Assembly (NCBI GenBank): GCA_003194525.1
Contig: NBIV01000001.1
Location: 744,001 to 808,000, forward strand
Reading direction: 5' to 3'
DNA: 64,000 bases
DNA from: Gracilariopsis chorda
Lineage: Eukaryota; Rhodophyta; Florideophyceae; Gracilariales; Gracilariaceae
How positions within the stretch are numbered: the stretch's first letter is position 1; every line of letters begins with the position of its first letter. Both the position numbers and the translations under genes were made by a program. Of the stretch, positions 1 through 40,212 are shown piece after piece. The notes below the pieces were generated by a model that had not been told where the DNA came from, searched no databases, and saw nothing but the letters and a program-made list of their open reading frames with translations.

Positions 1-2552
1 CGTCCATTGGCAGCACCAGTCATACTGGGATTTGATTACTGCGACAGATTTGTCGACGCAATCAGGCCCCACCTCAGGCGTGTAGAACTTGACGACGGAT
101 CGTCGGTTCCGATTGTTCGCCGCCCGCTAAAGCGGTCCTCTCGGAAACAAGTTCCGCTCCCTGCTGCGCAGGAACCACCGCCCGCGTCCCGCGAGTCCAC
201 CAAGCTCCGCGTCGCTGCCTCGGTTTCTATACCGGCTGAGTCCCAAGTCTGGGTGCAGGTAAATTGCCGTCAACACGTTCTTCGGGTTATACAACCCCTC
301 GCCTTGTTGTACGAGAAATCCCAGCTGGCGCTGGCTAATGGAATTGTCTCCATTTCCCCGGATGTTCCTTTCCGGATATTGGTTGCCAACCTTGGCAAAC
401 ACCCCCAGTATCTGGTAAAACACCAAGTAATTGGGAGTGTAACCCCCCATCCTATGGGAATGCTGCCAACAAAGATGACAGCCGCCGATGTACTCGGAGT
501 TACCACCTCTTCTGAGGAGTTCGCCCCGCCGTCCGAAGACGTCAAGTTTAAGGAGGGGGAGGAAACCGCTACTTCAGCGTCGAAGATACCGAGTAACTCG
601 GAATTGCGAACCAAACCTGTTCCAAAGGACAATGCTCCATCGAGCAACGACCGGATTGATCCGGAAAAGGCACTTGAAGCGCTGGACTTCAGCCACGTGC
701 CAGAGTCGCACCGCGACAAACTCCGTACCATGTTACGGGAATTCACCACAATGTGGGATGGCTCGCTTGGCGAGATTAACGCAACGGAACACCGGATCGA
801 TTTAATCCCCGGTGCGCGACCGGTTGCACAACCCCCTTACAGGGCAGGTCCGAAAGCTCAGGAAGAGGAGCAGTCCCAAGTGGACAAGATGCTCCGCGCA
901 GGTGTGATTGAGCCCGCTCAATCACCCTGGGCATCCCCAGTTGTACTGGCTTTAAAGGCCGACGGAACCTGGAGGTTCTGTGTCGACTACCGCCGGCTCA
1001 ATGCCGTGGCTGTTAGGGACACGTAACCTATCCCTCGTATGGACGAGTGTATTGACTCCCTTGGAGACGCCACCGTGTTCACGGCCCTCGATGCCAATTG
1101 GGGATATTGGCAAGTACCTGTCAGACAGGAGGATCGCGACAAAACCGCATTCACCTGCCACGCAGGAACGTACCGCTTCAAGCGGATGCCATTTGGGTTA
1201 ACCAACGCCCCCGCCACCTTTCAGCGTGCAGTAGATATTCTATTGAACCGCTTTAAGTGGCGGAGTTGTCTGGTCTACCTTGATGATATTATCATCTTCT
1301 CCAACTCGTTGGACGACCATCTCACTCACGTCCGAGACGTGCTGACCGTACTCCGCGATGCGGGAATTACCCTCAAGTTGAGGAAATGCGATTTTTTCAC
1401 AGATACTGTGAAGTATCTGGGTCACATTATCCGTCCTGGACGGTTAGCGATCGAGAAAGCTCGAGTCAAATCCCTCGTTGAGGCGAAAGAACCACGTACT
1501 CAAACGGAACTGCGCTCCTTTCTGGGGCTGGTCACCGTCTATCGACGGTTTATCCCGAACTTTTCGGATACCGCGGCGCCCCTGAACGCGTTGTTGCGAA
1601 AGGGGAGCCCCCCAAAACTGGGAACATTTACGCCCGAGCAATCGGAAGCTTTTAACTCCTTGAAGGAGGCTGTCACATCAGCACCAATCCTACATCTCCC
1701 AAAACTTGGGTTGCCATACTCCGTAGATACGGACTCGAGCGACTACCAAGTCGAGTGTGCTCTTTTTCAAACCACCCCCGAGGGGAAACGACATTCAATT
1801 GGTTATTAATCGCGCTCGCTCAATGTTCATGAGCGGAACTACTCCGTATCGGAGAAAGAGTGCCTCGCCGTCGTATGGGCGATGACCACTTTGCGCCCCT
1901 ACCTTATGGGAGTTCACTTCACTGTGTACACGGATCATTCCCCATTGAGGTGGTTAATGAATATCTCCGACCCGTCGGGACGCCTCATGCGCTGGAGACT
2001 CCGCCTCGCAGAATATGACTTCCAAGTCATTTATAAGAAGGGAGCACAGAACACCCAAGCTGACGCCCTGTCGCGTTTACGCACAAGTGGGGAAGCACTC
2101 CCAACGGAGAATGATGAAGTCCCATGTTTCATGGCCATAGACCCGGATGATCCGGAATGTGCTGTCGAGGCTGGGCCAGAAAACTGGGACGAGGATGCTG
2201 ACTTTGACGAACTACTCGCATCGCGAGATGAATCTGAGAACCCGTTACCGGGAAACTTTGTACCGGTATCACCGGAAGAAATGATCCGAGAAAAATTCGG
2301 CGACCCGTTCTGTACGAGGATTCGTGCCCGTCTTAACGGTGGTGAAGATCTCCCTTTCGGGGTAATCGACAAAGGCTACCTCGTAAGGAAGGTCGAAGCC
2401 CGCCCACAGATTGTGGTACCTCATTCCCTGCAGCCGCGGGTGTTACATCTATCACACTACGCCCCCATTGGAGGTCACCCAGGTGGGAGGAAACTCTACC
2501 TAACCCTGCGAAGAAATTTCTGTTGGCCCGCCATGGCGGTGGATTGCTATGT
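1..2552 (+). pseudogene. pol: gypsy copy A Pol: protease C-terminus, reverse transcriptase, RNase H (broken)
   Basis: One reading frame runs from base 1 to about 2550. It begins in the C-terminal part of the protease region (PVILGFDYCDRF) and continues into reverse transcriptase. The RT catalytic motif YLDDI is near 1280 and the conserved FGLTNAP block is near 1195. RNase H follows (YTDHSPLRWL near 1930, then ADALSRL near 2065), and the frame then enters the zinc-binding N-terminus of integrase. Two premature stops interrupt it. TAA at 1024 sits where copy B has tyrosine (DTYPLPRMDE), and TAA at 1807 sits where copy B has tryptophan (GYWSRSL). These are point mutations rather than recoding sites. 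The frame is lost near 2550 by an apparent one-base deletion. Confidence 0.9.
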
Positions 2553-4562
2553 ACCGTGCGGTTTTGTAGCGAATGCACGAAGAATCGCGTCAAGCTCCGC
2601 AAAAATGCGAAGAAGATGAAACTATTCCCCGCAAGGGCGCCGCTCGAGTTTATCGCGATCGATATTCTCGGACCACTACTCACCACGAAACGTGGAAACA
2701 AATTTCTACTTGTCATTACCGACCGCTTTTCTAAGCTGGTACGGACTGTCTCTCTTCGGAGGATAACCGCTCTCACGGTAGCCCAGGCTCTGGTGACGCA
2801 CCAGATTTTCGGCTACGGTCCCCCTGTGGAGGTGCTCTCCGATAACTGGAAACAGTTCGTGAGCACGTTCTTCCAGGATGTTTGTCGCATCCTAGATGTC
2901 AAGAACTTGTTCACGACTACCTACCACCCCCAGTGTAATGGGCACGTTGAACGGTTTAACCGGACGTTACTCGTGGCGTTACGTTCCTACGTCGCAGACC
3001 ACCCAAAGAACTGGGACATGTACGCTGATGCGGTAACCTACGCATACAATACGCAGGTACACCGGACTACCGGAGTTTCGCCATTCGAGTTGGTTCTATC
3101 TAGAACACCCCCGCCTGTGGCGCTGGAACCCCAAGCTACCTTGGACAATTTCCCATCAGTGGGTATCTACTGGCAGCAATGGAAGCAATGGCTTTCCAAG
3201 CTGGTCCCCGCTGCGCGGAAGTCTATGGCACGGGCCCAAGCCGCTTACAAGCGGGATTTTGATGCTCGCTTGCGAGGGAAACCGTCCCCGATTCGGGCGA
3301 ATAACTACGTCTTCATTAGGAAGGAGTACTACAACCCGGAACGGGAGAAGCGCACTAAACTCTCGCCTGTGGCGGATGGACCATTCAAGGTCATCTCTGG
3401 AAACACCGACACTGTCGTGGTAGAGATGGGCGACACGCACGAACGGATTTCCCGTGATCTTGTTGTCCTTGCCCCTCCTCCCTCGTCAGTGGTAGTCCTG
3501 GATCCAGGCAACCCCGTTTCTACGGACTCTGCAACACCGGAACCATCCGGGAGTACTAGGCCTACGGTACTACCACACCCCAGCCGGTGACTCTCAGACC
3601 TACCGACCCTGTCGGACTCACCGGCTCAGCCGGGTAGTTCGGGCCTCTCAGCGCCCGCCCCTACCACGTCTGCCACACTGGCGCACATTTATACCCGCCA
3701 GGCGGGGAATTTTATCCCTTATCCCGCCGCTCCGTCTAAGGAGGGGGAGGAGAACACTCGTTTTCGAGGAACGATATCGCCGTCGCAACGGGAAACACAC
3801 CGTAACATACGGAACACGGACCGTGGAGCACGGAGTATGTCACGCGACACTAATCCCCCGTTCCCGGGCAGTGCTGTGCAACAGGAACCAGACGCGCAGG
3901 CCCTGCAAAAGCGGCAATTACACCGTTTGTCACCGGAAAACGAGAAGCCTCCCTCCAATAACGCAGCAGCGGAAATGCAATCGCCCGATCCATCCCCGGA
4001 GGCATCGCCACAAACGCGGGAAATATACCGTGCTACACGGGAAGTTGAAGCGCAACTACCGCACACCCCTGTCAGGGGAGGATCCCCGATAAGGGAGTAT
4101 GGTGACGATTGCCCCCAATCCCCTGGGCAGAGAGATGCATCGAAGCCGCCATTGGCGGAAGCCCCGGCGGAAGCGGTTCAATTAGGTCCAGCAAACCCGC
4201 GCCCCGCGGAGAAGACGCGCCCAGATACGCCAGCCTCACAGGGAAATACCCACACCCCTCTTGGGGAAAAAGGCAGCCAAGCCGCAGTCGAAGCTTCAGA
4301 CCCTGGCTCGCAAGCGCCGGAAACGCCTCCCGTCATTGACGGAATCGAAGCCCCCGCTGCGGGGAATAATTTGGGCCAACCCCCGGAACACTGCGGCGAA
4401 GAACCGAGGAACTCGGGAATAACGGGCGCCATCGCACGCTCGAAACCGGTCGTACCGGACGCTGCTCCTCCTCATGGAGATGGTGCACCGCGCTTAGCGG
4501 GAATTCCCCTGAAAAGGGTGTCATCGGCACCTGCCCGGAACCCCCCAAAAGGGGAATTTTGA
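2550..4562 (+). pseudogene. pol: gypsy copy A Pol: integrase plus long proline/glycine-rich linker (broken)
   Basis: After the frame change near 2550, the zinc-binding motif (CSECTKNRV) leads into an rve integrase core: ATDILGPL-like start near 2655, the second acidic residue in the VEVLSDNW block near 2830, and the NGHVERFNRTL block carrying the third acidic residue near 2940. The usual C-terminal GPFKV fold is near 3380. A TGA at 3588 interrupts the frame, which then continues open to 4560. The 3590-4562 part encodes low-complexity sequence rich in P, G, E and T without a recognised fold. Its DNA is packed with short hairpins (see the repeat entry). An exit to another frame occurs in a C6-A4-G4 homopolymer run at 4541-4554, a typical indel site. 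Confidence 0.85.
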
Positions 4563-4912
4563 CCAAAATACCGGTGTACCGGAGTTAGCCCCAGGCAACC
4601 CGTCAGTAACCGGGGGCAGCACGGCGTCGCCGGAACGTATGGTGCAGAGCGCTCGTGCACCTGGCAGGGAGGCGGAACGCTTACCAATCACCGTGTCGCA
4701 CGGGACCCCGCAGGGGATGTCGCAAACGCCATTCCCGCATGCGCGGCAAAGACCCCGCAAGCTCGCGGTTCATGAAGAAGACCGCACTCGCGGAGTTCAA
4801 GTCCCCCGCCGGTTGGCGGTTCGCCCGGCCTACCGTGAAGACGGGAACAACGACACCCCTCTGGGGAATGACTTGCCGGTGCAAACCGTGACGCCAAACA
4901 CCCTCTTGAGGG
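3603..4912 (+). repeat. dense array of short GC-rich hairpins with different stems
   Basis: At least eighteen perfect inverted repeats with 4-6 bp stems and 1-4 base loops occur here, nearly all starting CC and ending GG, often followed by GA or GAA. Verified examples are at 3603-3615, 3621-3633, 3694-3706, 3800-3812, 3815-3825, 4028-4040, 4066-4078, 4146-4158, 4197-4209, 4255-4266, 4330-4342, 4352-4364, 4404-4416, 4446-4458, 4571-4582, 4706-4716, 4856-4866 and 4901-4912. Stem sequences differ (CCGAC, CCGGCT, CCCGCC, CCGTA, CCGTG, CCGTCA and so on) while both arms still pair. The pattern lies mostly in the Pol linker and recurs in the LTR. Confidence 0.75.
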
Positions 4913-5268
4913 ATATTTTCCCGCATGAGCAGCGGCCACTAGGACAGTGCACGGCAACGCCGGAGACATCGCCGACAACCCGGATAGGGGGTAATATACC
5001 GCGCAGCGGGCAACCCTCGCAAGGGAATACAACCACCACCCGGCACGGCCGGCAGGTCTACGAACGAGAGTTTGTAGTAGACCGACTTGTCGGACACACC
5101 TGGGACCAGGATGGTATTCTACAATACCCCGTCCGCTGGCACGGGTATGACCCCAGTGCGGATAAGTGGGAGCCAATTGAACACCTCCCACGATCGCAGG
5201 TCGTGCGATACCACCGTCCTACGGGAACTGCAGCCCCAGCCACGCTGGTTTATGCCCAAGTCGGGTAA
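4552..5268 (+). pseudogene. pol: gypsy copy A Pol C-terminus: chromodomain
   Basis: The frame that is open from about 4552 ends in a chromodomain encoded at about 5060-5215. The recognisable core is REFVVDRLVGHTW, then YPVRWHGYDPSADKWEP, then IEHLPRSQVVRYH. The W-x-G-Y-x3-D-x-WEP signature and the C-terminal helix are typical of chromovirus integrase tails, which bind modified histones and direct insertion to chromatin. The upstream part (4552-5040) is again a low-complexity linker. In described chromoviruses the chromodomain follows the integrase closely. Here roughly 480 codons of linker separate them. TAA ends the frame at 5266-5268. Confidence 0.85.
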
Positions 5269-5512
5269 CGTTGCCGCGCGAACGGAGGGCGATAGGAAAG
5301 GATAACAAGGCAAGGTCCGTCCAAGACGGGGAACTAAAACGAGAATCACCGTTCTAAACTGGAAAGTTCATTCAAGGGAGCAGCTAGCTCCCCACAACAC
5401 TATACTACACTAGCTGGCTATGCGAGGAAAGAAGAACCAGAAACGGCGCACGCGCTTTTAGCACCCATTTTCGTCTGGGAACCCTCCGCGTCCGCGGTCG
5501 TTTTCCCGTCTT

Positions 5513-5522
5513 AGGGGGGGGA
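5513..5522 (+). promoter_or_regulatory. polypurine tract (plus-strand primer) of gypsy copy A
   Basis: An A-G8-A purine run ends two bases before a TG dinucleotide at 5525. A polypurine tract directly 5' of a TG start is the standard junction between the internal region and the 3' LTR, where plus-strand DNA synthesis is primed. It lies about 245 bases after the chromodomain stop, as expected. Confidence 0.7.
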
Positions 5523-5524
5523 TA

Positions 5525-6235
5525 TGTAGTGCAACGCCCTCAAGGAGGGATTCTTGGTACTTGAACGCTTTCCCGATATTATCGGTTGTGTAGTGTGTAT
5601 ATGAACTACGCCCCACTCTGGTGGATATGGACACGTGGGACACGGTTTTGGGTCAATTGGCGGTTGGCCACAGTAGTGGATGTTGCCACGAAATGTGGAG
5701 TATTTTAGTTAATATTACTTATTATTTTCACACCCATTTCTGGGAAGCTAGTACTTAGTGCGACGGCGCACTGCCGTCGCACCAGTAAACCTTCCCCAAC
5801 AAGGGACCCCAACCTGGGGAATTGGCTCTAGTTGTTGCCGCTTGCGCGCGTACTCTACTCCTCCTTGGAGGGATACGCTGTAAACCACGGGACATCTAAC
5901 CCCCTTGCACATCTAAAGGGTCCCATCACTGGGAGTATAATTATTCCAATTGCATTGGTGTTTCGTCCTGTATAGGGATATTGTTACCGGCATCGCCGTT
6001 CGTCCCCGTCGCTCTCGCGATTCACTTCGTCCTCTCTTCCTCCTCTTCGCCCTTCCTTTTTCCCCTTTTTAGGGTAGCACCTCCCGCTATCCGCGGCCCT
6101 CGTGTGCGCATCCGCTCACACCCCCCCACTTACGTGGAAACATACCTCTACTGAAGATCACACCCCGCTCACTCGGATACCGATTGTTCGCCTAAACCTC
6201 CCTGCGCAAGTCGCGACAGGTGTCCCTGGTCTTAC
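5525..6235 (+). repeat. probable 3' LTR of gypsy copy A
   Basis: The LTR is inferred to start at TGTAGTGCAACG (5525), immediately after the polypurine tract. A TATA-like stretch (GTGTATATGAA) is near 5590. Internal hairpins resemble those of the linker: 5573-5585, 5807-5819, 5860-5871 and 5922-5933, plus a 10-bp perfect stem at 5758-5767 with 5773-5782. The right end is uncertain: a CA terminus could be near 6120 or near 6235. The 5' LTR needed for comparison is outside the window. Confidence 0.5.
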
Positions 6236-8880
6236 AAACCGGCTTCGCCGTGACACCTCTGGGAGGGCTCTACCCAAATGGGTTCACCTCGTGAGAGGAA
6301 GATCCCGAACGTCTTTCGGTGTTTCTCACCTTTGGGGCATTGCACCACAATTTCAGCCAGTAGGCATGGGATGTCGTCATCGATAGCGACCTGGGTTTGA
6401 CCCAGTGTTTCTAAGCGTGACAATGCGTCAGCGTGAACGTTAGCGGAGCCTTTCTTATACTTCACCTGGAAGTCGAATTCGGAAAGGTGTAGTCGCCATC
6501 GCATCAAACGCCCGGAAGGATCCGTTATTGACATCAGCCATCTGAGGCACGAATGGTCCGTGTGGACGGTGAAGGATTCTCCTTGAAGGTAAGGTCGGAG
6601 GGTCGTTAGTGCCCAAACTACTGCAAGGCATTCCTTTTCTGAGACTGAGTAGTTGCGTTCCGCTGGTTGCAGCGACCTAGACCAGTAACCGATGGGTTTC
6701 CGTTCCCCAGTGGGGTACGTCTGAAAGAGGGCACACCCTACTTGATAATCACCGGAGTCAGTGTCGACCGAGTAAGGTAGATCTTGTTTTGGGAGAGCCA
6801 GTACTGGCGCCGATGTTAGCACGTCCTTAAGCGTTTCAAAGGCGTTCGTCTCGGCTTCCCCGAACTCTTCCAACCTAACCGGTTGGCCTTTCTTCAAGAG
6901 TGCGTTGAGAGGCGCCGATATATGCGAGTATGGCGGGACGAACCGTCGATAGACGTTACAGACTCCTAGGAATGATCGCAGTTGTGTCTGCGTGGTCGGC
7001 GGGATCATTTTGCGGATTGCCGCCGTGGCCACCTCGTCCATCTCCAGGCGACCTGGTTTGATCAGGTGTCCCAAATACTTGACCTTATCCGCAAACCATT
7101 CGCACTTCTTGAGCTTCAGGGTGATTCCTGCTTCCTGTAACTTCTTCAGAACCTCTTCTACGTCCACGAAATGTTCTTCCATGTTCTTACTAAAGATAAT
7201 AATATCGTCCAGATAGACGAGGCAAGTCCTCCACTTATACATCGATAGGATGATATCGATAGTACGTTGGAACGTGGCTGGGGCGTTGGTGAGTCCAAAA
7301 GGCATGCGATTAAAACGGTATAGACCGGCATGGCATACAAACGCAGTTTTGTCGCGATCTTCTTCCGCTATTGGCCCTTGCCAGTAACCCCAATTCGCGT
7401 CGAGCGTGGTGAAAACGGTGGCCTCACCAAGACTATCGATGCACTCATCCATCCTGGGGAGCGGGTAAGTATCCCGTACGGTAACAGCGTTTAGCTTCCG
7501 GTAGTCCACGCAGAAGCGTAACGAACCATCCGCCTTCGGAGCGAGGACCACTGGGGACGCCTAAGCCGATTGGGTGGGTTCTATTACCCCTTTTTCCAGC
7601 ATGGAGTCCACATGTTCCTGTTCGATCTGTCGAGTCCGCGGTCCAGCACGGTATGGATGCTGTGCAATGGGCCGGGTGCCTGGTAGAAGGTCGATATGGT
7701 GCTCGGTAGCGGTGATCTCACCTAACGTTCCGCTCCACATAGGAGAATACTTCCGTAGTAAACTACGTAGTCGTTTCCTATACTGTTCCGGAATGTGGGC
7801 CAGATCGATGTCGTCCACCAACGGAGCGTCAACTGTGGTCAGCCTGTTCGGGTTTTGCTCCATTGTATGACTGACAACTGGTGACCCAGATTCGCCATCA
7901 TTCTCTGCTTGCAGATCCTTGGCTGGTAGCTAGACTCCAAGTACCTCCGCCAACTTAACGTGGGTCGGTATTATTACCGTGGGATGTGGCAGCGCATTCC
8001 CAATGATTTGGTTCTTAAAAAGCCTCACCGGCGAGGTGCTAAAGTTGGAGACCAACATCCGAAGGGGTACGTCTGGCGTAACTTGAGCGACGCCGTTAGC
8101 GGCTTTCACTGCGTACATTTCGTCCACCTTAGAGATTGGCTCTATCATGACCAGCCCGTGTCGCTTTGTTACGGCCGTTATCCATGTCTGTGACTGCGAA
8201 GTTAACTCCACCTGCTTCACTACCCTAATATTAGGGGATACTCTGCCCTTAGCGGCGTTGTGTTGCGACGGTGGTGCCACCTGGCCCTTGGTTAACCTCG
8301 AATATCGGATAATCGGTACCGATGTGCCATCAACCATTTCGACCTCTCGAGTCCTGGGGCGAATAGCCTCTATGAATCTATCACAGTAATCACAGCCCAG
8401 AACCACTGGTACTGCAAGGTGCTCGCACACCACGAATTTCACAAGAACGACGTGATGTCCTAACCTGACGACCATCCGTATAGTTCCACTTACTGTTAAT
8501 CTGTCCCTACTTGCGTCGCGGATATCCGGTAGTGTCTCCTGAACAATTGTAGCCGTGTCCTCCGGGGATAACTACGATTTTCTGATGAAGTTCGGCCCAG
8601 CGCCGGTGTCCAATACGGCCAGTTTGCGCCATAGGAGAGTCTTAGTTGCGCCGATATCGGCATATACCTTATAATTTCGTTTCGCCATCACCAAGATGTC
8701 GTCGCTACGCCTCCCCGGGCAGACATATCGTCGCCATGGGCGGTGCAGTTCGCAGTCAAATTGCACATTCTCGCTCGTCGTTTGCGACTTCCTTTCTGGC
8801 CGCAGAAGTATCTTTGGCCTCCATTCCCGGGAGCGGGGACTGTCGCCTCCCCCGGCCGGCGTAGCGGGATCGACCTCCAC
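6232..8880 (-). pseudogene. pol: gypsy copy B Pol: protease, reverse transcriptase, RNase H (broken)
   Basis: A single frame carries the aspartic protease motif (LDTGAGPNFI, near 8590), the C-terminal protease region (PVVLGCDYCDRF), reverse transcriptase (FGLTNAP near 7290; YLDDIIIF near 7210) and RNase H (VHTDHSCLRWL near 6555; ADALSRL near 6420). Three nonsense codons interrupt it: 8572-8574, 7930-7932, and TAG at 7561-7563, where copy A has the conserved tryptophan of SPWASPVV. The 8880 start is a GTG and has no meaning, since Pol is made by frameshift from Gag. After RNase H the frame runs into about 45 unrelated codons and ends at 6232. Confidence 0.9.
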
Positions 8881-8903
8881 CGACCCCTCGAGGGCTCCCT
8901 CGT

Positions 8904-11159
8904 CTAGTTTCCCGCATTCCTCGGGGCGGACGGACCCGCGTTGGAGGGGGTATTCCTCACCTCGTGAGAACGTCTTTGTAATGAGGGTGGGGGCCCTTGC
9001 AGGGCCCTCTGCGCGTTATCAGTGGCCTTCCACCACTTTGCGTTCCAATACGCGTTGCCGGGAACCCTGTCTCGCTTCTCTGCTGTCAGAGACTCATAGT
9101 TCGGGACAATCTTGTACAACTCTCTGGCGGTGAGAAGGCATTCGGGGGCTGTATGATGCTTCCCAGAGCAGAAGTAACAAATAAGGGCTTCCTTAGCGCT
9201 CGTTAGCGGTACCGCCGCAGGACGATACGCCAGCTGGTTATTGACCCAACCGGGCTTCTTAGATGTGAACCCACCCAGTGGGGGAACCATTCCCGCTCTG
9301 GGAGGCCCTCGACCGTTGTTCATCAGCATGAGGTCATCCTCGCCATGTGAATCCGTGTTCGGAAGGTCCGACTTCGGGACTGATTCCCCTCCTTTGCCCA
9401 GGTAGAGGACAGCTTCCAACTGGTTCTGATCAGCGTTCGGTCTTGGCAGGGTAGAAGCCCTAGATTCCGCAGGGGACTGCATCAACATGGCGGCTGCTTT
9501 GACTCCACGCTTGGGGGTTTCCTTACGGATCTCCGTGGAGCTCAGTCGACGTGTGCCATCCGAGCGAGCACGAACGGCATCGCTTTCCGCCTGTGCAAAT
9601 TGGACCAGTTCCAAATAGGTCATACCTCCGTGCCGTTCACGATAACGAATCACCAAGGACTTGGTTGCCGCAGTTAACCCATCTGCGAATAGTGACATCT
9701 TCTCGTCAGTCGAGTACACATTCCCACATCTTGTGGCTGCCTTATTCAGCCTCGAGCTGTACTCCCTCTCGTCCTCTAGGGGTTTCTGTAACACGCTTCG
9801 AAGGGCGTTGGTTGCCTCTGGAATCGCGTTGGAAGTCGCGTACCTCCTCAGTAAATACTGAACTGCCTCTGGCCAACGGCACACACCACCTTCATCCGAA
9901 GATAAGGAGCCGCTGACGGCGCGATACTGCTCCAGGGTGAACCCGACAAGGAAGTGGGGAAGAGCCACGAAAGCCTGAGATTCGCTCATCTCCAATGTAT
10001 CCGCCTCCGTCACAAAACGGGAAAGGAAGTCATACACCATAATCGGGTCCTTCCTGTCAAAACTTAAATCGTCGGCGCCGACTTTCATTCTCCGGATATG
10101 ATCCTTTACCTTGGCGGTTTCGCGACCAGGTCGCTTCGACTTCCTGATCTTCAGGCGATATAAACGATAGTTGAGGATCCTCTTATAGAGGGAGTTCGTG
10201 CAGGACAGGGGTTTGAGTCCCTTATGACGCGGGCCCATTCTCCGTCGGGCTAAGGCTGTTCCTCGGCGCCCCTTTCGCCCTCGACGATCATCGTCATCAC
10301 TCGAGCTTTCGTCAGTAGACGTTTCAGAATCGGAAGGATCCGAATCAGATTAGTCACTGTCGGAGTCCTCTGTGTCTGAGTGTCGGCGCTTCCTCCTCGA
10401 AGACTTCTTCTTCTCCTTAGAGTTCGCCTTACGCGAGTGAACCTCTCCCGCTTGGGTCTCGGCCGGGGGCTGGTCTTCAGCGACTGCCACAGCTCCGGAG
10501 GGCGGTTTGGCCGCCGACTGGTCTACAGCATTTTCCAACCGCTCCAGACGTGGGTTTACACGGGTGAGGACTTCCTCAACACTGACAGGCATAGCCGAAA
10601 TGGCAGAGGTGGCCCTCTGGGCTTCCAGGACTCCGTTCAAGTCTTCACGGAGGGTCCGTACCGACTGACACATGTGCTCCTGGTGGGCTTCGCGGGCCTT
10701 GAGGACTGCGGCCTCAGCCTGAACCAACTCGAGTGTTGAACTAACCGAAGTTAATCTTCTTTCCAATTCTTCCAGACGGAACTTCTGTGTCTCAGATTCC
10801 GTACGGAGAAGCTGCAATTCAGCGCGTAACACATCCTGACTCACAGGGGGCGTAGGCACCGGGTTGGTAACTTCCAATTGAGCCGTGGTCGGCGTAGGGA
10901 CCTCGGAGGCGACTCCGGGAGTTCCCGTAGACCGAGAACGAGCTCGAGCCTGCTCATATAAGCGGTTGCCGGCCTCTATAGAGGTGGCTAGGCGGGCTGT
11001 TGATGAAACCGGTTTGTCGGAGCCGGACTTGCTCCTAGTTGTCGTCATGGGAGTTCCCAAAATCGGGTTGTCCAAACAAAGAAGGGGATGCCAGCGAGCT
11101 GGACCAGAATTGAATAACGGGTTGCCAAAAACCGTACAACAACCCGAAATGTCGGTCAC
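8904..11159 (-). pseudogene. gag: gypsy copy B Gag (one nonsense mutation)
   Basis: About 750 codons in one frame are split by a single TAA at 10350-10352, inside a Ser/Asp-rich run that continues unchanged on both sides. The N-terminal part (11159-10350) has a predicted coiled coil (LRTESETQKFRLEELERRL) and a basic SRKANSKEKKKSSRRKRR patch. The C-terminal part (about 10238-8904) has a retrotransposon capsid-type helical domain and one CCHC zinc knuckle, CYFCSGKHHTAPEC (C-x2-C-x4-H-x4-C), which binds genomic RNA. Gag packages the element RNA in virus-like particles in the cytoplasm. The following pol frame is offset by -1, consistent with normal gag-pol frameshifting. Confidence 0.85.
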
Positions 11160-12153
11160 AAGTCACTCGATCCTAAGCTTCTAGGTCGGGAGACTACTTT
11201 GTGGTATACCCACTACGGCCAAGTGGCCACTCGGTAGCAGTGCGGGTATCCGCAGAGAACACCCCAAGTGAGGGCAGAGTGTGCGTGCCTTGCGAGCACA
11301 GTAACAGGGAGCCTTGGCGAGGTGTGGCCGTTAACGGCGAGTTGTATGTATCGGTGGTTGACACCCACGAGAGTTGTAGCTAGTCCGGCCGGCGTTGCGT
11401 TAGAGCGTGCGCACTAGAAGCTTCTTGAAAGCCACCGTGTCGTTGAACAACCCTTGCCCCTGGCTTGTGGTCTGGACCGATCACCTGAAGCTTCTAGTGG
11501 CGACACATCGCAGTTACTGCACGCTCCGCATAACCGCCTTCATCATTGGACCACGAACACAGACGGTGAACCGGAACTATTATATAAAGTCCTGAATAAG
11601 GCCTCCGCCGCTATTAACCCTTCAGGGAAGTTAGCACTTGGCTGAGCTAAGGTTCGCAAGCCGTATACCGGTTGGGAATCGACTGGGGACTTGAACTAAG
11701 CCTGCAGATAGCGCACTTGCCGTATAACTGGCTCAGCTGGGGTGAGTGTAGCTGTTCGTAAGGGGACAGGGTGTCTCGTCGTTCGGCCCGGACCTTAGTG
11801 AAGACAAGGACGTTTCAAGGAGCAAGATCGCCGCGCAAGTAGCCGTAAGGAATCAGAGGAGGCCAACTGGTGAGCACATATCACGTTGTTAGTAACCTCT
11901 CCTGGACATTCCGTAGGTTGCACGCACCCTCGTTCTGGATTGTGCAGAACTTGGGCGGGCCGCTGAAATCGCATCTCACCGAGAGAGTCTTACTCGGAGC
12001 CAGAGGTCTGACCTTTAGGGAACCGGAGATAGTATCTCCTGCCAGTGGACCCGGCTACGCAAAAGTAGTAGAAGGATCCCTCAACCGGTAGGGGACCGGT
12101 GAAGAATTCTATCTGCCAGTCTCCTTTAGTCTCGCGTTGAGTGATACTCCGCG
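11160..12153 (+). other. non-coding: LTR or leader sequence between gypsy copy B and the copia element
   Basis: No gene is seen. This stretch should hold the 5' LTR and leader of gypsy copy B (minus) and/or the 5' LTR and leader of the copia element (plus). I could not match it to the sequence after the copia element, so no LTR pair is demonstrated. A few short palindromes occur, for example GCCGTTAACGGC near 11330. Confidence 0.4.
11581..11588 (+). promoter_or_regulatory. TATA box candidate, probable copia LTR promoter
   Basis: TATATAAA lies about 570 bases upstream of the copia gag-pol start and is the only good TATA box in this gap. The position and orientation suit a 5' LTR promoter driving the copia element. 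LTR boundaries were not found, so the assignment is tentative. Confidence 0.4.
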
Positions 12154-15078
12154 ATGGACTCTGAGACTTACCAAGAAAATAAACGTATACCCCGTCTAAA
12201 AGGGGGCGCCGATTACTACACTTGGCGCATATACATTAGGGATCTCATGCACTCTCTCCAATCATTATTCGTGCTTTCGGAACCTCGTCCAAATGAAGGA
12301 TCCGCTGCAGCTCGAAAGAGATGGGACGACGCCGATCGAAAGGCAAGATCGGCCATCGTCCAAAACCTTGACACACAGCCGATCGTCGCAGTTTCGGAAC
12401 TACTCGAAAGAGAACACTGCTCTGCTTTGGAGGTATGGAATAAACTCGAGTCTACATATAAGAAGGACAACATACAATCCAAATTGAACCTCCGCCAAAA
12501 GCTAAGCACCTTGACATTCAAGGATGGCGACGACGTACAGAGACATTTACTCGAGTTGGAGACAACCTACTTAGAACTTGCTAGACTGGGTGACCCACTC
12601 ACGGAAAAGGAGCGAACTGCGACTCTGCTCCGTACCTTGCCAGACTCACTAATGGCAATCACATTATTGGCGGACGCAACCAACATGGAATACGATCAAG
12701 TCGTTTCGCTTGTGCGATCCGAAATGGACCGACGTGTTCATCGGGCATCGAAATATACCACGAAGGCTACAGAAGCCAAGAAAGATGGCATTCACCCCTA
12801 CCCCGCTGCGAAAAAGACTACAACCCGACGCAAGCAGCATGCAAAAGGGAACAAGAAGGGAGTTGTATGTTGGAATTGTGGACGCATAGGCCACATCAGG
12901 GCCGAATGTTGGCGCAAGAAAAATAAAAACCAACAACAGCCCAACAATAAAAACTCCAATAATAATAAACATAACAAAGGCGAAGGACGCAATAACAATC
13001 GAGCTTGGGACTCTAACAACTTCACCGACGCCCATAACCAAGGGCGACCAAACGCTAACCGCCACCACGGAGACAGAGAAAGGAACCACTACCGCGGATT
13101 CATAGCATTAGCTAATGCCAGTCTCCACCAGGACAACATAACCCCAACATGGCTGGACTCTGGGGCTAGTCATGTTTTCATCAAGGACAAATCGTTGTTC
13201 TGGGAATATCACCAAACACCTCCGCAAACCGTAAACACTTGCGACCACCAGTCAGAGATCGTAGGCTGTGGAAAAATAAAGCTACCCTTAGGAACCGGAC
13301 TCATGTTACCCGCCAAACATACCCCAACCTTCGACTCTAACTTGGTATCCTTATCTGTCCTGGTGAATTACGTCGAGGTGCAATACTCAAACGGATTCGT
13401 AATTAAAGACCGCACAACGGGCCAAGTCATACAACACTCCACCCCGAAGGACGGACTCTATCCCCTACCGAGCCCCGTATCACCACCACAGGTACAAGCT
13501 GCAACACATGCACCTGACAACAGAGCCAAAGATTGGCACGAGAAACTCGGACACCCTGGAAGAGAGAAACTCTTGACATGCATTGATTTATGTCAAGGGG
13601 TACCTAAACTCTCCCCATATGAAGTCGACAACGTCATATGCACTCCGTGCATTGACGCCGGCACGAAGCGTGCTCCACTTCAACGTTCAAACTCGGTAGT
13701 GCAGAGACCTTTGGAGTTAACGCACACTGACCTCACTGGACCCATAACCCCAACCTCTTTACAAGGATCGAAGTATATGCAAGTCCTCATTGACGACAAC
13801 ACAAGGGCAAGCTCAATATACTTTCTAAGTAAGAAGAAACAATTCTTTGAATCTGTCCGCTGGTACAAGGCTCGCGCGGAAACCGAACTACCTCCCAACC
13901 TAATGTACCGCGTTCGCCTTGACGGATCGGGTGAGAATAGGTCAGACGATTTCGTCTCATACGCGATGGAAAATGGTATAGTACTAGAGTTCACTCTACC
14001 GTACGCACACCAATCGAACAGTGTAGCAGAGAAAGTCATCCAAGACTTGTGGAAGATGGCTAGAACATTCCTGTTCGCCTCCAAGCTACCGCATGAGCTA
14101 TGGGAAGAAGCCATTTCACACGCAAACTACTTGAGAAATCGCCTACCAAATCATCGAGCAGGAATGAAGGTTCCTTACACCTTATGGTTCGGACGAAAAC
14201 CGGACTTCACAAACTTACGGAAGTTCGGGCAAGAAGGCCACGCGTTCATATACAGGCCTGAAACCGTCACAAATAAGAAGTTCCTACCACGCGCTATTCC
14301 TGGACACTTCGTGGGGATGCAAAGCCCGCGGACACTGTATAGGATATACATCCCATCCATGGGAAAGGTAATAAAGTGCCGCGAGGCAGATTTCAAGGTT
14401 ACCAAGGAGTCCCTCCCTTCAATCAAAGACCTTATGGACTTCTCGTCTCTCAGACGATACGAAGCCGAGAAAATTATGGGTGAAGAAGATGAAGACCATC
14501 TAGACGCTTCTCTTGCTCATTGCCTTATCGCACACTCACGCTCCAAAGACCTCGGGGATGATGGCAGAGTCCCCAAGAGCTTTGAAGAAGCCAGAGTGAT
14601 GCCAGGATGGGCAGAAGCAATCGACAGAGAGTACGATGCGTTGGTGGAAAGAGAAACTTGGAAGCTGATAGATAGAGAACCTGGCATGAAACCATTGCCA
14701 TTCTTATGGAGGTTCTTAGCAAAATTATTAAGCTCCGACCCTCCGCGTATCCTTCCAAAAGCGCGTTGCGTAGCACGGGGCGACCTGCAACGCCTGTACT
14801 TGGATTACGACCCAGACAACTTGTACGCCCCGGTTGCCCGTCTTGAAACCATTCGTCTTTTGTTGGCAAAGACCGCATCTCAGGGCCTGATACTAGAGAC
14901 TATGGATATTAGCAATGCATACCTGTACGGTGATCTAGACGAGCCTCTAATCATGGAACAACCCCAAAACGCATCTGGTTCCTCATTTAATCCTGGAAAG
15001 ACTTCAAGACAGAGATGCAGAACCTCTTTAAGGTTAAGGTCCTTGGAGAGGCGAAACGTTTCGTTGGATTTGACATAA
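12154..15078 (+). pseudogene. copia Gag-Pol: Gag, protease, integrase and N-terminal RT
   Basis: ATG at 12154 opens a 974-codon frame. It contains a UBN2/Gag region (residues about 20-200), a CCHC knuckle CWNCGRIGHIRAEC (about residue 247), the aspartic protease motif WLDSGASHVFI (about 330), and the GAG-pre-integrase zinc motif from WHEKLGHPGR (about 464). An rve integrase core (HTDLTGPIT to HQSNSVAEKVI, about 525-630) follows, then the start of reverse transcriptase (WAEAIDREYDALVERETWKL, then ETMDISNAYLYGDL). Homology stops at about codon 945. The last 30 codons are out of frame after the deletion. The missing block includes the YVDD catalytic aspartates, so this copy has no polymerase. 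Confidence 0.9.
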
Positions 15079-15929
15079 CGAGGGACAAGAACGGAATAAA
15101 GGTACAACAGAGCAGGTATATTGACAAGATACTGCTGGAAAATGGTCTGGTTAACTCCAACGTTGTTCGAACTCCATTGCCGTCACAATGCGACATCACA
15201 GCTCGTCGAGAGGACAAACGGCGTATTCCATCAGGCGTACATGACCGCTACCGGAAACTGGTAGGAAGTTTGATGTACTTAGCCGTCTCATCGAGGCCAG
15301 ACATCATGTTTGCCGCTTCAATGCTGGCAAGGCAGGTCCATGATCCATGCATGAGGCATGTTGGGCATGCAAAAAGAGTACTGAGATACTTGAAGGGTAC
15401 AAAGGGTCTTTGCTTGTTCGTTCACGCTAATAACACAGCACTAATGGAGGCATACTGTGATTCAGATTGGGCCGGTTGTCGTGAGACGAGAAAGTCTACG
15501 ACAGGATTATTAATAAAGGTGAACGAAGCACCTGTAATGTGGACGACCAAGAAGCAAACTCTTGTTGCTCTGTCGTCTGGAGAGGTGGAGTACATTGCAC
15601 TGTCATATTGTGGAAAAACAGTAATGTGGTTGCGTAGAATATTCTGGGAACTACGCAACGAATCAGTCCTGGAGGATGAACCTCAAATGTACCCTATATC
15701 CATAGCAACGGACATTTCGACTGCTTTGTCGATCGTGAAGAGTCCGAAGGTCTCGGAAAGGAACAAGCATATTGCTCTAAAACATCACTACATAAAAGAG
15801 CTGCTGGAGACCAAGATAATTGACGTGAAGTCAATAAGGACTGATGTGCAAGCTGCCGATATATTTTCTAAGCCTGTTGTCTTTGAAAAGCTCAGAAGAC
15901 TGACATTACTTTGTGGCTTGACAAAGTAG
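14991..15929 (+). pseudogene. copia RT C-terminus and RNase H, downstream of the deletion
   Basis: In a frame shifted from the upstream one, homology resumes at WKDFKTEMQNLFKVKVLGEAK, the thumb/connection region of copia RT, and runs through RNase H (YCDSDWAGCRETRKSTTG with the catalytic Asp; then LSSGEVEYIAL with the catalytic Glu; then the KHIALKHHYIKELL block). It ends at a TAG at 15927-15929. The 15015 ATG has no biological meaning. This is the remainder of the same polyprotein. Confidence 0.85.
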
Positions 15930-16543
15930 TATTGCTACTTGTAAGTATTATCTGAATATGTTGATTTATAACTAACCTTGCTTCTATACTTCCAAGTTTT
16001 GTTTTGAAAGTAGATTCTTATATTTCATGGTGATTAGTAATGGATGTAGTAAGAGTATCATACCTTTTCCTAGACTGCGTATTTTTCCTATAAGGTTTTG
16101 CTGTGGTACAGGTTTTTAATGGTGGTTACTATGCTTCATAATCATAGAGTAGATTAGTCGCAATCTGCGCCGAATGACTTGCTTGCGAGGGACGGTGTGA
16201 ATGGAGACACGCTGGCCACCAGTTGGGACGTGGTTTACAGTCCACTCGTCCCGACTGGAGGCACCAAATAAATGACCTCGCTGATCTGCCTTCACCAGCA
16301 TGATGGGAGGAGGGAGACAGTGGAGAAGACACAAAGCTAGAAACAGCTACAGCGGCCTCGGAATTAGAGGCACGAGCCCGGAAAACAAACCCACAGAAAT
16401 TAAGTCTGGAGGCTAACTCAAATGCTTCCCATACTTGCAGCAATGCAAATTCCCCATGATTGCTGTTAAGGTGATGATAAAACCTGTACCATTAGTACCG
16501 TTGGCAAACGGAGACGATAAGACGTTAAGCACCCATTTATTTA
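15930..16543. other. non-coding gap, possible degenerate copia 3' end
   Basis: AT-rich sequence following the copia stop. A 3' LTR would be expected here, but I found neither a polypurine tract next to a TG nor similarity to the sequence upstream of 12154. It also contains the 3' flank of the metacaspase gene on the minus strand. Confidence 0.5.
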
Positions 16544-37851: not shown

Positions 37852-40212
37852 ATGAAATCCGGGAATCCGGCAAAGGTTGGGAAGTATGTTATTCACGAGA
37901 AGTTGGGCGCTGGAGGGTTTGGAGTGGTTAGGAAGGCCATTGATGAAACCACAGGAGAAGCTGTGGCAATCAAGATATTGGACAAGGCAGAGCTTCAGAT
38001 GTACGAAATGACCCAACACGTGAAGAAAGAAATATCGTTGTTGACAACGCTTAACCATCCGCATATTGTGAAAGGAGTTGAAGTGCTTAACTCGAAGACA
38101 AAACTTTTTCTGGTCATGGAGTTCGTGGACGGAGGGGACGTACATTCAGCTCTCTTTCACAAGAAGAAGTTTTCTGAAAGATACACGCGAGTGCTTTTCC
38201 GTGCACTTATGGAGTGTCTGGTCTACTGCCATTCAAAGGGAGTTTATCACAGGGATCTAAAACTGGAGAATTTGCTTATGACGTCCTCGGGCCAACTTAA
38301 AGTCTGCGACTTTGGACTGGCTTCTGTTAGAGAACTTCACAGCAGCAAAGCAGAACTCTGTCAGACCAAAGTAGGTACTGAAGATTTTAGTTGCCCAGAA
38401 ATAATGCAGTCTCTGCCGTATAGTGGAGAAAAAGCCGACATGTGGAGCAGCGGTGTGATACTTTACACGCTATTGGCCGGGTTCTATCCGTTCGGAGGTC
38501 GGACTCCAGGAGAAGTAACCCAAAGAATCATTGACTGCAAACTGAGCATTCCACGTCACTTTTCGAGAGAAGTGAAGAATTTACTCAAGAACCTTCTCGT
38601 CAAGAATGGGAAACAGCGCTTTTCGGCCTTAGAAGTTCTAAATTCTGAATGGATGCAACCGAGCTACACACAACATTTGGTCCTCCCCAATCAAAGCCTT
38701 AGGAACTATTCTTCAAGCTCCCGTCACTCTTCTCCACGATCTCGGGAATCTGCTTCAACAACGTATTCTCAAAGCAGTTTTGATGAAGAGAAGAAATCAA
38801 GAGGAAAACTTCGACTACCTAGCTTTGTTCCAGTGCGAAGATCTACGATCATCGTGACTCGGCTCTTTCGCAGTGCAAACAATGGCGCTTTGAGTCCAGT
38901 ATCAGAGAAAAAGGATGAAATTCTTTCCTTCGTTCTCTACGAATCTCTGGGTCGAGCAAGAATCCCGAATTTCATTAGAATCTTGGATGCTATGAAGAAT
39001 TCAAACAACGGGATAAAAGTTCAAGATCGGAAGTGGAGATTCTCTAGCTTCCCGTCATGCTTTGTAGGATCAGAGGCTGTGCTTTGGATATGTAACTATC
39101 TCTCATGCTCTACTGAAGAAGCTATTGAGCTAGGCCAGAGCTTTCATGAAGCAGGAGCTTTTCATCATGTCTGCAGGGATCATTCGTTCAAGAACGAGCA
39201 CTTGTACTATCGGTGGCATTCGGATGACCCAGCGAATGCCTTTCTGTTGAACGGACGATACGCGCATCGCGCTTTGTATGCGCGAAACCCGGAGAAGATT
39301 GCGTACAATTTATTAACAGAGCTTCTGAATGTTTGCAGATATCACCAGCAGCTTCACGATTATAGACAGATTGACATGTTGGGAATTCAGAAGGATTTGC
39401 GATTCAGTAGTTTTGCTAACGCCGTTGTGGAGTTACAGACTGCTGAACTGCAAATGATGCAAACTGACGAACAAAAGATTTCTTTTCTTGTTAACCTTCA
39501 CAATATGTTCTGGATCCATGCTCGTATAATGATCGGGGACTTCGAAGAAATGAGCTTTGATAGACTAAGAAAAACAGCGGAGAGTCTGGAGTACATAATT
39601 GGGGGCTGCCGAGTCTCACTTGGGGACGTGAAGGGTTTCATATTTCCTAACGAGGAAAGCAAGGGACAATCGGGATCAACAAAAGGGCAGGGCCATGCTG
39701 TTTACCAGCATGGCACCATGTCTCCAACGAGAGGTATTAATCGAGCGATAACATGGATTACTGCGACACATGGCGCAAATGATGTTCGTTGTTTGCTTCC
39801 CCAGAAGGTACACCCTTTGGTGTGCTTCTTGCTTAGCGATTCTTCTCCTCAATCACCACTTATACGTCCCATTTCCGCCAATGATATAGCAGAGGAGTCA
39901 CTATTTAAAGCGGCAGGACAGTACCTGGATGAAGTGCTTGAGGTCGACGTAGATTTCTGTTCAATTCGATACCCTTCGAAAGTTGGAGAGTACCGGGCGC
40001 GAATAGGTATTGAAAACGATCAGGAGTTGGTGTGCGATTTTGCCAATCTTGCAATTGGATTTGAGGTGCAATATCCACTCCAGCAAGTCAAAGAGCTTGT
40101 ACGACTCGACGCCAGCTGCCTATCGGTTACGGAAATTAGTGACGACTCTTTGCCATTTTCTAGATCTTTGTTTGCCCCCAGTATAGCAAGTGAGTCCTCC
40201 ATCAGCAGTTGA
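37852..40212 (+). CDS. serine/threonine kinase fused to DEP and DUF547 domains
   Basis: A single 786-residue exon. The N-terminal kinase (about 11-272) is of the CAMK/SnRK3 type: glycine loop GAGGFG (19-24), Lys41 in VAIK, HRDLKLEN (133-140) and DFG (153-155), with the PE(I) and WSSGVILYTLLAG blocks. The activation segment reads GTEDFSCPE. A Ser-rich linker (about 285-345) follows. A DEP domain (about 378-462; KWRFSSFPSCFVGSEAVLWI) usually binds membranes or GPCR complexes. A DUF547 domain (about 500-735; FSSFANAVVELQTAEL, then KISFLVNLHNMFWIHARI) completes the protein. DEP plus DUF547 occurs in plants and protists; fusion to a kinase is a combination I do not know. Function is presumably membrane-linked signalling. 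Confidence 0.9.
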   Translation: MKSGNPAKVGKYVIHEKLGAGGFGVVRKAIDETTGEAVAIKILDKAELQMYEMTQHVKKEISLLTTLNHPHIVKGVEVLNSKTKLFLVMEFVDGGDVHSALFHKKKFSERYTRVLFRALMECLVYCHSKGVYHRDLKLENLLMTSSGQLKVCDFGLASVRELHSSKAELCQTKVGTEDFSCPEIMQSLPYSGEKADMWSSGVILYTLLAGFYPFGGRTPGEVTQRIIDCKLSIPRHFSREVKNLLKNLLVKNGKQRFSALEVLNSEWMQPSYTQHLVLPNQSLRNYSSSSRHSSPRSRESASTTYSQSSFDEEKKSRGKLRLPSFVPVRRSTIIVTRLFRSANNGALSPVSEKKDEILSFVLYESLGRARIPNFIRILDAMKNSNNGIKVQDRKWRFSSFPSCFVGSEAVLWICNYLSCSTEEAIELGQSFHEAGAFHHVCRDHSFKNEHLYYRWHSDDPANAFLLNGRYAHRALYARNPEKIAYNLLTELLNVCRYHQQLHDYRQIDMLGIQKDLRFSSFANAVVELQTAELQMMQTDEQKISFLVNLHNMFWIHARIMIGDFEEMSFDRLRKTAESLEYIIGGCRVSLGDVKGFIFPNEESKGQSGSTKGQGHAVYQHGTMSPTRGINRAITWITATHGANDVRCLLPQKVHPLVCFLLSDSSPQSPLIRPISANDIAEESLFKAAGQYLDEVLEVDVDFCSIRYPSKVGEYRARIGIENDQELVCDFANLAIGFEVQYPLQQVKELVRLDASCLSVTEISDDSLPFSRSLFAPSIASESSISS

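Follow-up and report, generated by a model that had tools for sequence, protein, structure and literature searches.

Dispersed Mini-Hairpins of Exact Size Along a Ty3/Gypsy Retrotransposon of the Red Alga Gracilariopsis chorda: Candidate Structural Signals in Genomic RNA

Introduction

Genome-scale ordered RNA structure occurs in RNA viruses, and arrays of small GC-rich hairpins that spread by insertion are found in fungal mitochondria, in the form of double-hairpin elements and GC clusters. Multiple dispersed packaging signals have been described for single-stranded RNA (ssRNA) viruses, MS2 and others, in the part of that account considered here (PMC6281560), and the RNA of the retrotransposon Ty3 is portrayed, in the corresponding part of its own account (PMC11381356), as a patchwork of regions, some structured and others dynamic, with a few cis elements. 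Here, we analyze a stretch of 64,000 nucleotides (nt) from the red alga Gracilariopsis chorda (GenBank assembly GCA_003194525.1, contig NBIV01000001.1, positions 744,001 to 808,000 of the forward strand; hereafter the window), which opens inside a Ty3/gypsy chromodomain element of about 9.9 kb (9,911 bp) that we named F1. All along F1 recurs a small hairpin defined by its size and pairing, and this pattern bears on the open question of how the particles of long terminal repeat (LTR) elements select and fold their own RNA.

Geometry of the Hairpin Unit

The unit repeated in F1 can be written 5'-CC NNN (3 nt) NNN GG-3', that is, 13 nt closed by five Watson-Crick pairs. Over the 9,911 bp of the element, 55 such CC 13-mers are found when 1.38 are expected from dinucleotide shuffles, together with 20 CC 12-mers (1.17 expected) and 11 CC 14-mers (1.25 expected), which amounts to 86 CC units of 12-14 nt per 9.9 kb. 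The mirror clamp, GG...CC, closes a single 13-mer (0.9 expected). Among outer lengths, 13 nt predominates, with a smaller excess at 11, 12, and 14. All three inner pairs are formed in 55 of the 167 CC-N9-GG frames of F1 (1.4 expected), and the classes with two inner pairs hold 6-11 frames each (3.1-3.7 expected). One-mismatch stems inside CC...GG frames reach two to four times expectation, far under the excess of perfect stems, and interior mismatches over all letters show no excess.

The helix is limited in length. In the 51 CC 13-mers of the F1 stretch without the 3' LTR, the bases immediately outside the hairpin never form a Watson-Crick pair (0/51 vs. 11.6 expected, P=1.9e-6) and form a G.U pair once (2.2 expected), and the bases at the ends of the loop pair at chance (15 vs. 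12.9, n=51), from which it follows that the helix comprises five pairs and no more. This five-pair limit is absent from the 22 13-mers that lack CC (7 flank pairs vs. 5.5 expected). Beyond CC/GG and a preference for G at the third base, the stems have no letters in common, and the loops share no sequence, the shared letters being the outer CC/GG.

Three features were considered as possible indicators of the strand on which the hairpins are read, and were abandoned. An earlier note on this DNA had remarked that GA or GAA often follows the hairpins; an A does follow 39 of 81 of them (48%), but mostly by a general habit of F1 after GG (265 of 677 GG dinucleotides, 39%), and with the excess so reduced the flanking A was dropped. 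G.U is rarer than A.C at stem ends by dinucleotide shuffles, a difference that is not significant by codon shuffles (P=0.12). Finally, folding z-scores do not differ between strands.

Extent of the Hairpin Excess

The earlier note had singled out the linker between integrase and chromodomain (3603..4912, + strand) as an array of hairpins above chance, with diverse stems whose arms match, and both claims are borne out. With hairpins counted as perfect, non-overlapping, with a stem of at least 5 and a loop of 0-4, the linker holds 22 (mean 6.65, maximum 15 in 200 dinucleotide shuffles), 16 of which start with CC (mean 1.1, maximum 5 in the same shuffles). When CC hairpins of outer length 11-14 are counted in all registers, 20 are found, whereas 1000 shuffles average 1.13 and never exceed 10. 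Stem sequences differ from one hairpin to the next, and their arms remain complementary.

The linker is the densest CC/GG mini-hairpin stretch of F1, at about twice the density of the rest of the element, but the view of the array as a linker feature had to be given up. Successive 2-kb intervals of the window (1-2000, 2001-4000, and 4001-6000) contain 39, 26, and 29 hairpins, respectively, with about 7 expected in each, and the excess continues into the 5' part of F1 upstream of the window; gag and both LTRs are covered as well. A linker-confined RNA element is ruled out by this element-wide excess. CC 13-mers number 14 in the 2.7 kb of gag, 17 in the 3.6 kb of pol, 14 in the 1.3 kb of the linker, and three to four in each LTR (0.8 kb each). 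Five-pair hairpins of 11-14 nt with any letters cover 20.4% of F1 versus 4.6% after shuffling, and the mean z-score of folding energy is -1.37 in F1 versus -0.16 in host DNA. Across positions 22001-64000 of the same window, 21 intervals of 2 kb show no hairpin excess (z between -1.6 and 2.4). A search of window positions 1-6400 with Rfam 15 returned no match above the gathering score, and a screen of viral contigs for the hairpin pattern gave six matches, none of which is a relative.

Independence from Protein Coding

Codon shuffling, which holds both the protein and the codon usage fixed, does not account for the excess. In the gag and pol pieces of F1, hairpins of 12-14 nt number 101 versus 20.9 in codon shuffles, and the same measure gives 41 versus 14.2, 42 versus 12.1, and 40 versus 15.8 in three other elements of this genome, namely F2, F3, and four pieces of G2. 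No excess of such hairpins over codon shuffles is seen in a further family, F4 (9 vs. 9.5), or in four open reading frames of the host (36 vs. 40.5). With lengths of 11-14 nt, the reverse transcriptase piece at 1039-1806 holds 26 hairpins (4.7 in codon shuffles) and the integrase piece at 2523-3587 holds 17 (5.1). CC 13-mers start in every codon phase.

Many pol hairpins sit in conserved codons, inside stretches that align without gaps to other families (hairpins spanning alignment gaps were excluded from the family comparison). Over the four pol pieces summed, amino-acid identity between F1 and F2 is 182/273 in stem codons and 559/855 in other codons, and between F1 and F3 it is 150/275 and 471/829. 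Stem codons are therefore conserved like others, and the hairpins leave the protein undisturbed. The proposal that a localized RNA region occupies the place where the protein lacks structure is wrong, since hairpins occur in gag, reverse transcriptase, integrase, linker, and LTR, as well as, with other lengths, in other LTR families.

Variation Among Copies of F1

Thirty-nine further copies of F1 were aligned to the window copy, and four of them (L023, L042, L043, and L047) were dropped because each covers no more than 5,000 of the first 5,440 bases; the remaining 35 and the window copy make up a set of 36. The comparison spans the first ~5.4 kb of the window, gag and the LTRs lying outside. 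The core set consists of the 60 CC hairpins that are perfect in half or more of the 36 copies. Singletons, which should be mostly post-insertion mutations, strike stems as often as other positions, with 281 falling in the 600 stem columns and 1969 in the 4424 columns outside stems, loops, and flanks. Variants shared by at least three copies, probably inherited ones, number 25 in 600 stem columns, 19 in 163 loop columns, 13 in 240 flank columns, and 404 in 4424 others. In ascertainment-matched control windows, 0.073 variants per column are found versus 0.042 in stems, and a value as low as that of the stems is reached by 6 of 1000 random sets.

The pattern lies in the linker and 3' end. In the linker, variants shared by three or more copies number 6 in 170 stem columns, 12 in 49 loop columns, and 160 in 1109 remaining columns, with singletons at 0.547, 0.592, and 0.467 per column, respectively. 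Protection of stems in the linker and 3' end persists when only G/C columns are considered (8/200 vs. 131/893, P=1e-5). Protection also holds when the window copy alone serves to define the hairpins (4/226 vs. 132/1567, P=8e-5) and, more broadly, with hairpins defined in one group or copy only (P from 1e-6 to 8e-5). Together, these results indicate selection on structure during replication of the family, with stems, not loops, guarded in the linker and 3' end; the selection that the earlier note had suspected is thereby supported.

One compensatory pair was found, in the hairpin at 5349..5361 (+; perfect in 32/36 copies, imperfect in the window copy). One set of copies carries CCGTC-CGA-GACGG, the other CCGTT-CTA/CAA-AACGG, with changes in both arms; the pair is C-G in 16 copies, T-A in 19, and G/G in one. 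Copies split on this pair show 17 near-fixed differences, the pair included, all within 5193-5385 and none elsewhere in the 5.4 kb. The two groups are distinct in this block and do not stand out as separate lineages over the rest, and the block looks as if a segment had been swapped between lineages. In the neighboring hairpin at 5317..5329 (+; 29/36), the difference between the groups, a near-fixed A/B difference at 5322, lies in the loop only. The statement of the earlier note that both arms change together needs correction in this respect: complementary arms differ from site to site, but within the family the shared double change is confined to 5349-5361, stems elsewhere being mostly unchanged. 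The remaining double changes are each in a single copy (7 paired and 9 unpaired cells versus 11.5 expected by independence) and carry no weight.

The core hairpins all lie on the + strand and are 13 nt long unless stated otherwise; fractions give the copies, among the 36, in which the hairpin is perfect. In the linker, they are found at 3603..3615 (26/36, a nine-copy variant changing the loop only), 3621..3633 (28/36), 3694..3706 (29/36, with a loop variant in 14 copies), 3800..3812 (27/36), 3821..3833 (30/36), 4028..4040 (30/36), 4067..4077 (11 nt, 34/36, with a 13-nt form at 4066-4078 in six), 4146..4158 (28/36), 4330..4342 (28/36, with loop variants), 4352..4364 (26/36), 4383..4396 (14 nt, 29/36, imperfect in the window copy), 4404..4416 (27/36), 4446..4458 (26/36), 4571..4582 (12 nt, 30/36), 4691..4703 (28/36), 4806..4819 (14 nt, 29/36, a 13-copy variant changing the loop only), and 4901..4912 (12 nt, 31/36). 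Five more in 5040..5248 start at 5040 (13 nt, 30/36), 5082 (12 nt, 27/36), 5099 (12 nt, 30/36), 5151 (11 nt, 30/36), and 5236 (13 nt, 29/36), and are followed by the two at 5317 and 5349 discussed above. The 36 core CC hairpins of pol, in 16..3550, start at 16, 124, 160, 321, 446, 589, 616, 651, 746, 937, 1073, 1117, 1154, 1173, 1301, 1371, 1431, 1555, 1698, 1721, 1775, 1922, 1940, 1967, 2080, 2122, 2143, 2263, 2404, 2528, 2683, 3131, 3241, 3287, 3497, and 3537.

Other LTR Families of the Genome

Beyond F1, five further copies of 4 kb each (L049, L050, L051, L052, and L053) were scanned, representing four other gypsy lineages (L051 and L053 are 98% identical), as were G2 and the copia-type element of the window (11950-16000). 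The lengths in excess over codon shuffles depend on the family: 11 and 13 in F2, 10, 12, and 14 in F3, 15 in the copia-type element, 13 in one G2 piece, and, weakly, only 16 in F5 and F6 (also 17 in F6), the last two favoring even lengths by dinucleotide shuffles. F4, represented by one copy (L050), has no hairpin excess at any length. A strong CC clamp is a feature of F1 only among the families scanned. Hairpin positions are mostly unshared between families, which fits selection on number and geometry, not on particular sites.

Proposed Explanation and Alternatives

The arms of the hairpins are arbitrary in sequence yet complementary, which suggests that the structure is read in single-stranded form, as RNA or as complementary DNA (cDNA); proteins that bind duplexes would be unable to sense whether two half-sites are complementary. 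The exact length, the C-first clamp, and the non-pairing flanks point to recognition rather than to mere stability. Furthermore, the lack of a hairpin excess in the host DNA of the window, the family-specific geometry, and the existence of a family without the excess suggest that the reader is encoded by the element; Gag, which has to collect its own RNA, is the natural candidate for this role. The translation of F1 gag contains a C-x2-C-x4-H-x4-C pattern, spotted by eye, which we take to be a zinc-knuckle motif and count in favor of Gag.

We tentatively propose, giving it somewhat less than an even chance, that F1 carries dispersed, structure-defined signals in its genomic RNA, which are candidate weak Gag-binding sites for packaging or assembly. 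The hairpins would form in single-stranded genomic RNA, provide weak and interchangeable putative sites for the RNA-binding protein of F1, most likely Gag, and act jointly in packaging or particle assembly. Each family may tune the length of the hairpin to its own protein, such that positions would turn over and number and geometry would persist. In this reading, RNA would be the relevant strand, as opposed to cDNA, and Gag the probable partner. As would be expected of dispersed packaging signals, stem-loops exceed chance throughout F1, and stem variants are depleted in the linker and 3' end, weakly in pol.

Several observations weigh against this proposal. No result argues more strongly against a site-specific function than the turnover of positions between families. 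In a comparison that excluded F4 and F6, the homologous position holds a full hairpin in 16 of 467 cases between F1 and the other families, in both directions (7.3 in codon shuffles), and in 20 of 496 among the non-F1 families (6.9), a two- to threefold excess that may reflect shared codons; homologous hairpins with changed arms exist singly, and several of these follow from palindromic codon strings in conserved peptides. Compensated pairs between families, in the same comparison, show no excess, the letters matching, when both had changed, at 0.356 versus 0.325 and 0.306 versus 0.338. Within F1, the pair at 5349-5361 is the single case among shared variants. Protection of stems is weak in pol (old variants 3/360 vs. 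71/3133, P=0.08, or 0.03-0.15 by other definitions), where stems have 0.042 variants per column versus 0.048 and the whole gene is constrained. G.U pairs are not favored: over all letters, interior G.U number 31 (37.3 expected) and A.C 37 (45.4 expected), and among one-mismatch stems inside CC...GG frames, G.U is the least enriched (7 vs. 3.9 expected, with 18 vs. 4.8 for A.C and 48 vs. 18.4 for others). Folding z-scores are equal on both strands and do not distinguish sense RNA from cDNA, and sense values reach only -0.28, -0.44, and -0.34 in the hairpin-rich F2, F3, and G2. A Pfam search of F1 gag found no domain. Finally, the MS2 recognition motif lies in the apical loop and a bulge, according to the part of PMC6281560 considered here, and the loop of the F1 hairpins is free.

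An unlikely, though by no means negligible, alternative is diffuse selection for compact or shielded RNA, as a defense against nucleases or small-RNA targeting, in which stems exceeding five pairs would impede translation or reverse transcription and no specific binder would be involved. Such selection would be consistent with an excess that is element-wide, compatible with the protein, and densest under weak coding constraint, with positions that mostly turn over between families, and with the capped length in F1. Nevertheless, it predicts neither the rule that CC lies outside (55 CC vs. 1 GG) nor the 0/51 Watson-Crick flank pairs, stability alone favoring G.U and longer stems.

A role of the hairpins in single-stranded cDNA instead of in RNA, for instance at the stage of strand transfer, nuclear import, or integration, is improbable in our judgment. 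Loops of 3 nt suit DNA hairpins, G.U is handled like other mismatches, and the identical folding z-scores of the two strands would also be accommodated; however, the single F1 insertion site examined, in G2, is by eye not a hairpin.

The main non-functional rival, which we regard as disfavored and quite improbable, is templated mutation, whereby the nascent strand would fold back during reverse transcription, copy its own arm, and perfect near-palindromes without functional selection. The strict Watson-Crick pairing with no preference for G.U, the restriction of the excess to the retroelements of the window, the family lengths, which could mirror each reverse transcriptase, and the mostly unshared positions are all in keeping with it. 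Copying should nonetheless continue through complementary flanks about one-quarter of the time, and it does so in 0 of 51 cases (11.6 expected). Moreover, the rate seen elsewhere (131/1544) predicts about 20 old variants across 240 stem columns in the linker and 3' end, and two are seen; both come from the one compensated pair, whereas conversion of arms predicts many double changes. The CC rule is left unexplained as well, and compensated pairs between families are not in excess.

A mobile mini-palindrome that inserted repeatedly and then diverged is very improbable. Short GC-rich hairpins spreading as inserts are known in fungal mitochondria, but in pol this scenario is contradicted by the many hairpins lying in ungapped alignment to other families. 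The stems also lack a common sequence beyond CC/GG and the preference for G at the third base, and where the window copy has its 57 CC hairpins, only 36 of 9,975 cells in the 35 other copies are gaps, a count that leaves aside insertions private to those copies. Repeated insertion or templated generation of palindromes, which the earlier note had entertained, is hence disfavored by the ungapped conserved codons, the rarity of gaps, and the flanks that never pair. Chance, base composition, or codon structure can be dismissed with near certainty, being refuted by both dinucleotide and codon shuffles and by the one F4 copy and the host genes, which show no excess.

More generally, the LTR retrotransposons of this alga might bear a sequence-independent structural code, in which a family-specific hairpin size would be read by a family-specific protein, a possibility that we entertain with some doubt. 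If true, hairpins would take up a large share of every element (a fifth of F1) and in F1 would carry a clamp of two pairs at their base and, just outside, a base-pair "stop"; they would make up an element-wide address label spelled in shape instead of letters, lying beneath the protein code and arising afresh at new positions from family to family. Dispersed packaging signals of RNA viruses are hard to detect by statistics alone; the signal of F1 (55 vs. 1.4) is sharply bounded and legible from one sequence. With F4, in its one copy, as a natural negative control and host DNA as background, the role of the hairpins is directly testable.

The F1 Element and Its Surroundings

F1 is a Ty3/gypsy chromovirus by its domain order, its C-terminal chromodomain, its LTR ends, and its target duplication. 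Its in-window part, the internal region and 3' LTR, occupies 1..6349 (+), as delimited by the match between LTRs, the TG..CA ends, and the target duplication, and its 5' LTR and gag lie upstream of the window, in L009:6439-10000. The 3' LTR (5525..6349, +; TG...CA) itself bears hairpins (four CC 13-mers vs. 0.08 expected); the 5' LTR is at L009:6439-7263, and the pair is 97.9% identical over 826 bp (window 5525-6350 vs. L009:6439-7264). The LTR ends read TGTAGTG...CACCACA, with a 5-bp target duplication, ATTTC, on either side. Along F1, Pfam domains follow the gypsy order, namely RVT_1, RT_RNaseH, the integrase zinc domain (a match below the Pfam curated cut-off), rve, and a C-terminal Chromo. 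The reverse transcriptase piece of pol (1039..1806, +; RVT_1, 3.8e-32), which has many hairpins in conserved codons, is followed by the integrase piece (2523..3590, +; rve, 1.2e-9) and, at the C end of pol, by the chromodomain (5071..5196, +; PF00385, 1.2e-9), whose coordinates derive from residues 145-186 of the frame 4639-5268. The pol frame of the window copy is interrupted at several places, and many other copies retain long open frames. F1 seems abundant and young: among 619 first-look candidates, at least 40 DNA matches were scored, with identities of 91-100%, and among 4011 candidates for its reverse transcriptase at least 148 were scored, with identities of 95-100%. Its gag has its nearest named relatives in red algae (Agarophyton).

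F1 is inserted in the pol of G2, an older gypsy element on the minus strand, with the halves of G2 on either side of it and a 5-bp duplication. One half, hairpin-rich, is at 6350..11388 (-) and the other, upstream of the window, at L009:1660-6438; window 11200-11388 and L009:1660-1848 are 98.9% identical and were taken as the G2 LTRs. The nest of F1 in G2 spans L009:1660 to window 11388. Directly downstream lies the copia-type element (12154-15929), with gag, integrase-type, and RVT_2 matches in 12154-15078, and a second open frame (15015-15929) overlaps the end of this matched region. Further along, a host gene at 37852-40212 encodes a protein kinase with DEP and DUF547 domains, whose nearest named relatives are in Agarophyton and Gracilaria (52%) and in Chondrus (40%).

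Comparison with Known Systems

Our search of the open-licence literature, at the level of titles and the starts of abstracts, found no description of fixed-size hairpin arrays in an LTR element. F1 resembles the genome-scale ordered RNA structure of RNA viruses in its element-wide folding excess (mean z -1.37), and differs from it in that this excess takes the form of a discrete 13-nt unit of defined geometry. Unlike the fungal double-hairpin elements and GC clusters, the hairpins of F1 are in codons, have almost no insertions or deletions at the sites tested, and have stems that vary by site. With the genomic RNAs of the yeast elements Ty3 and Ty1 and of HIV-1, F1 shares the presence of structured stretches, which in those RNAs include short dimerization palindromes at the 5' end; as far as the part of PMC11381356 considered here describes them, it differs in repeating a unit of fixed size along the whole element. 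A further likeness is to the packaging signals of ssRNA viruses, which, in the corresponding part of PMC6281560, are many degenerate stem-loops along the genome that have features, rather than a whole sequence, in common, and which act collectively. Relative to the signals described there, the letters shared in F1 are at the base of the stem, as CC/GG, the loop is free, and the length is exact to the base pair; F1 is moreover an LTR retrotransposon, with 86 CC units of 12-14 nt in 9.9 kb as candidate binding sites.

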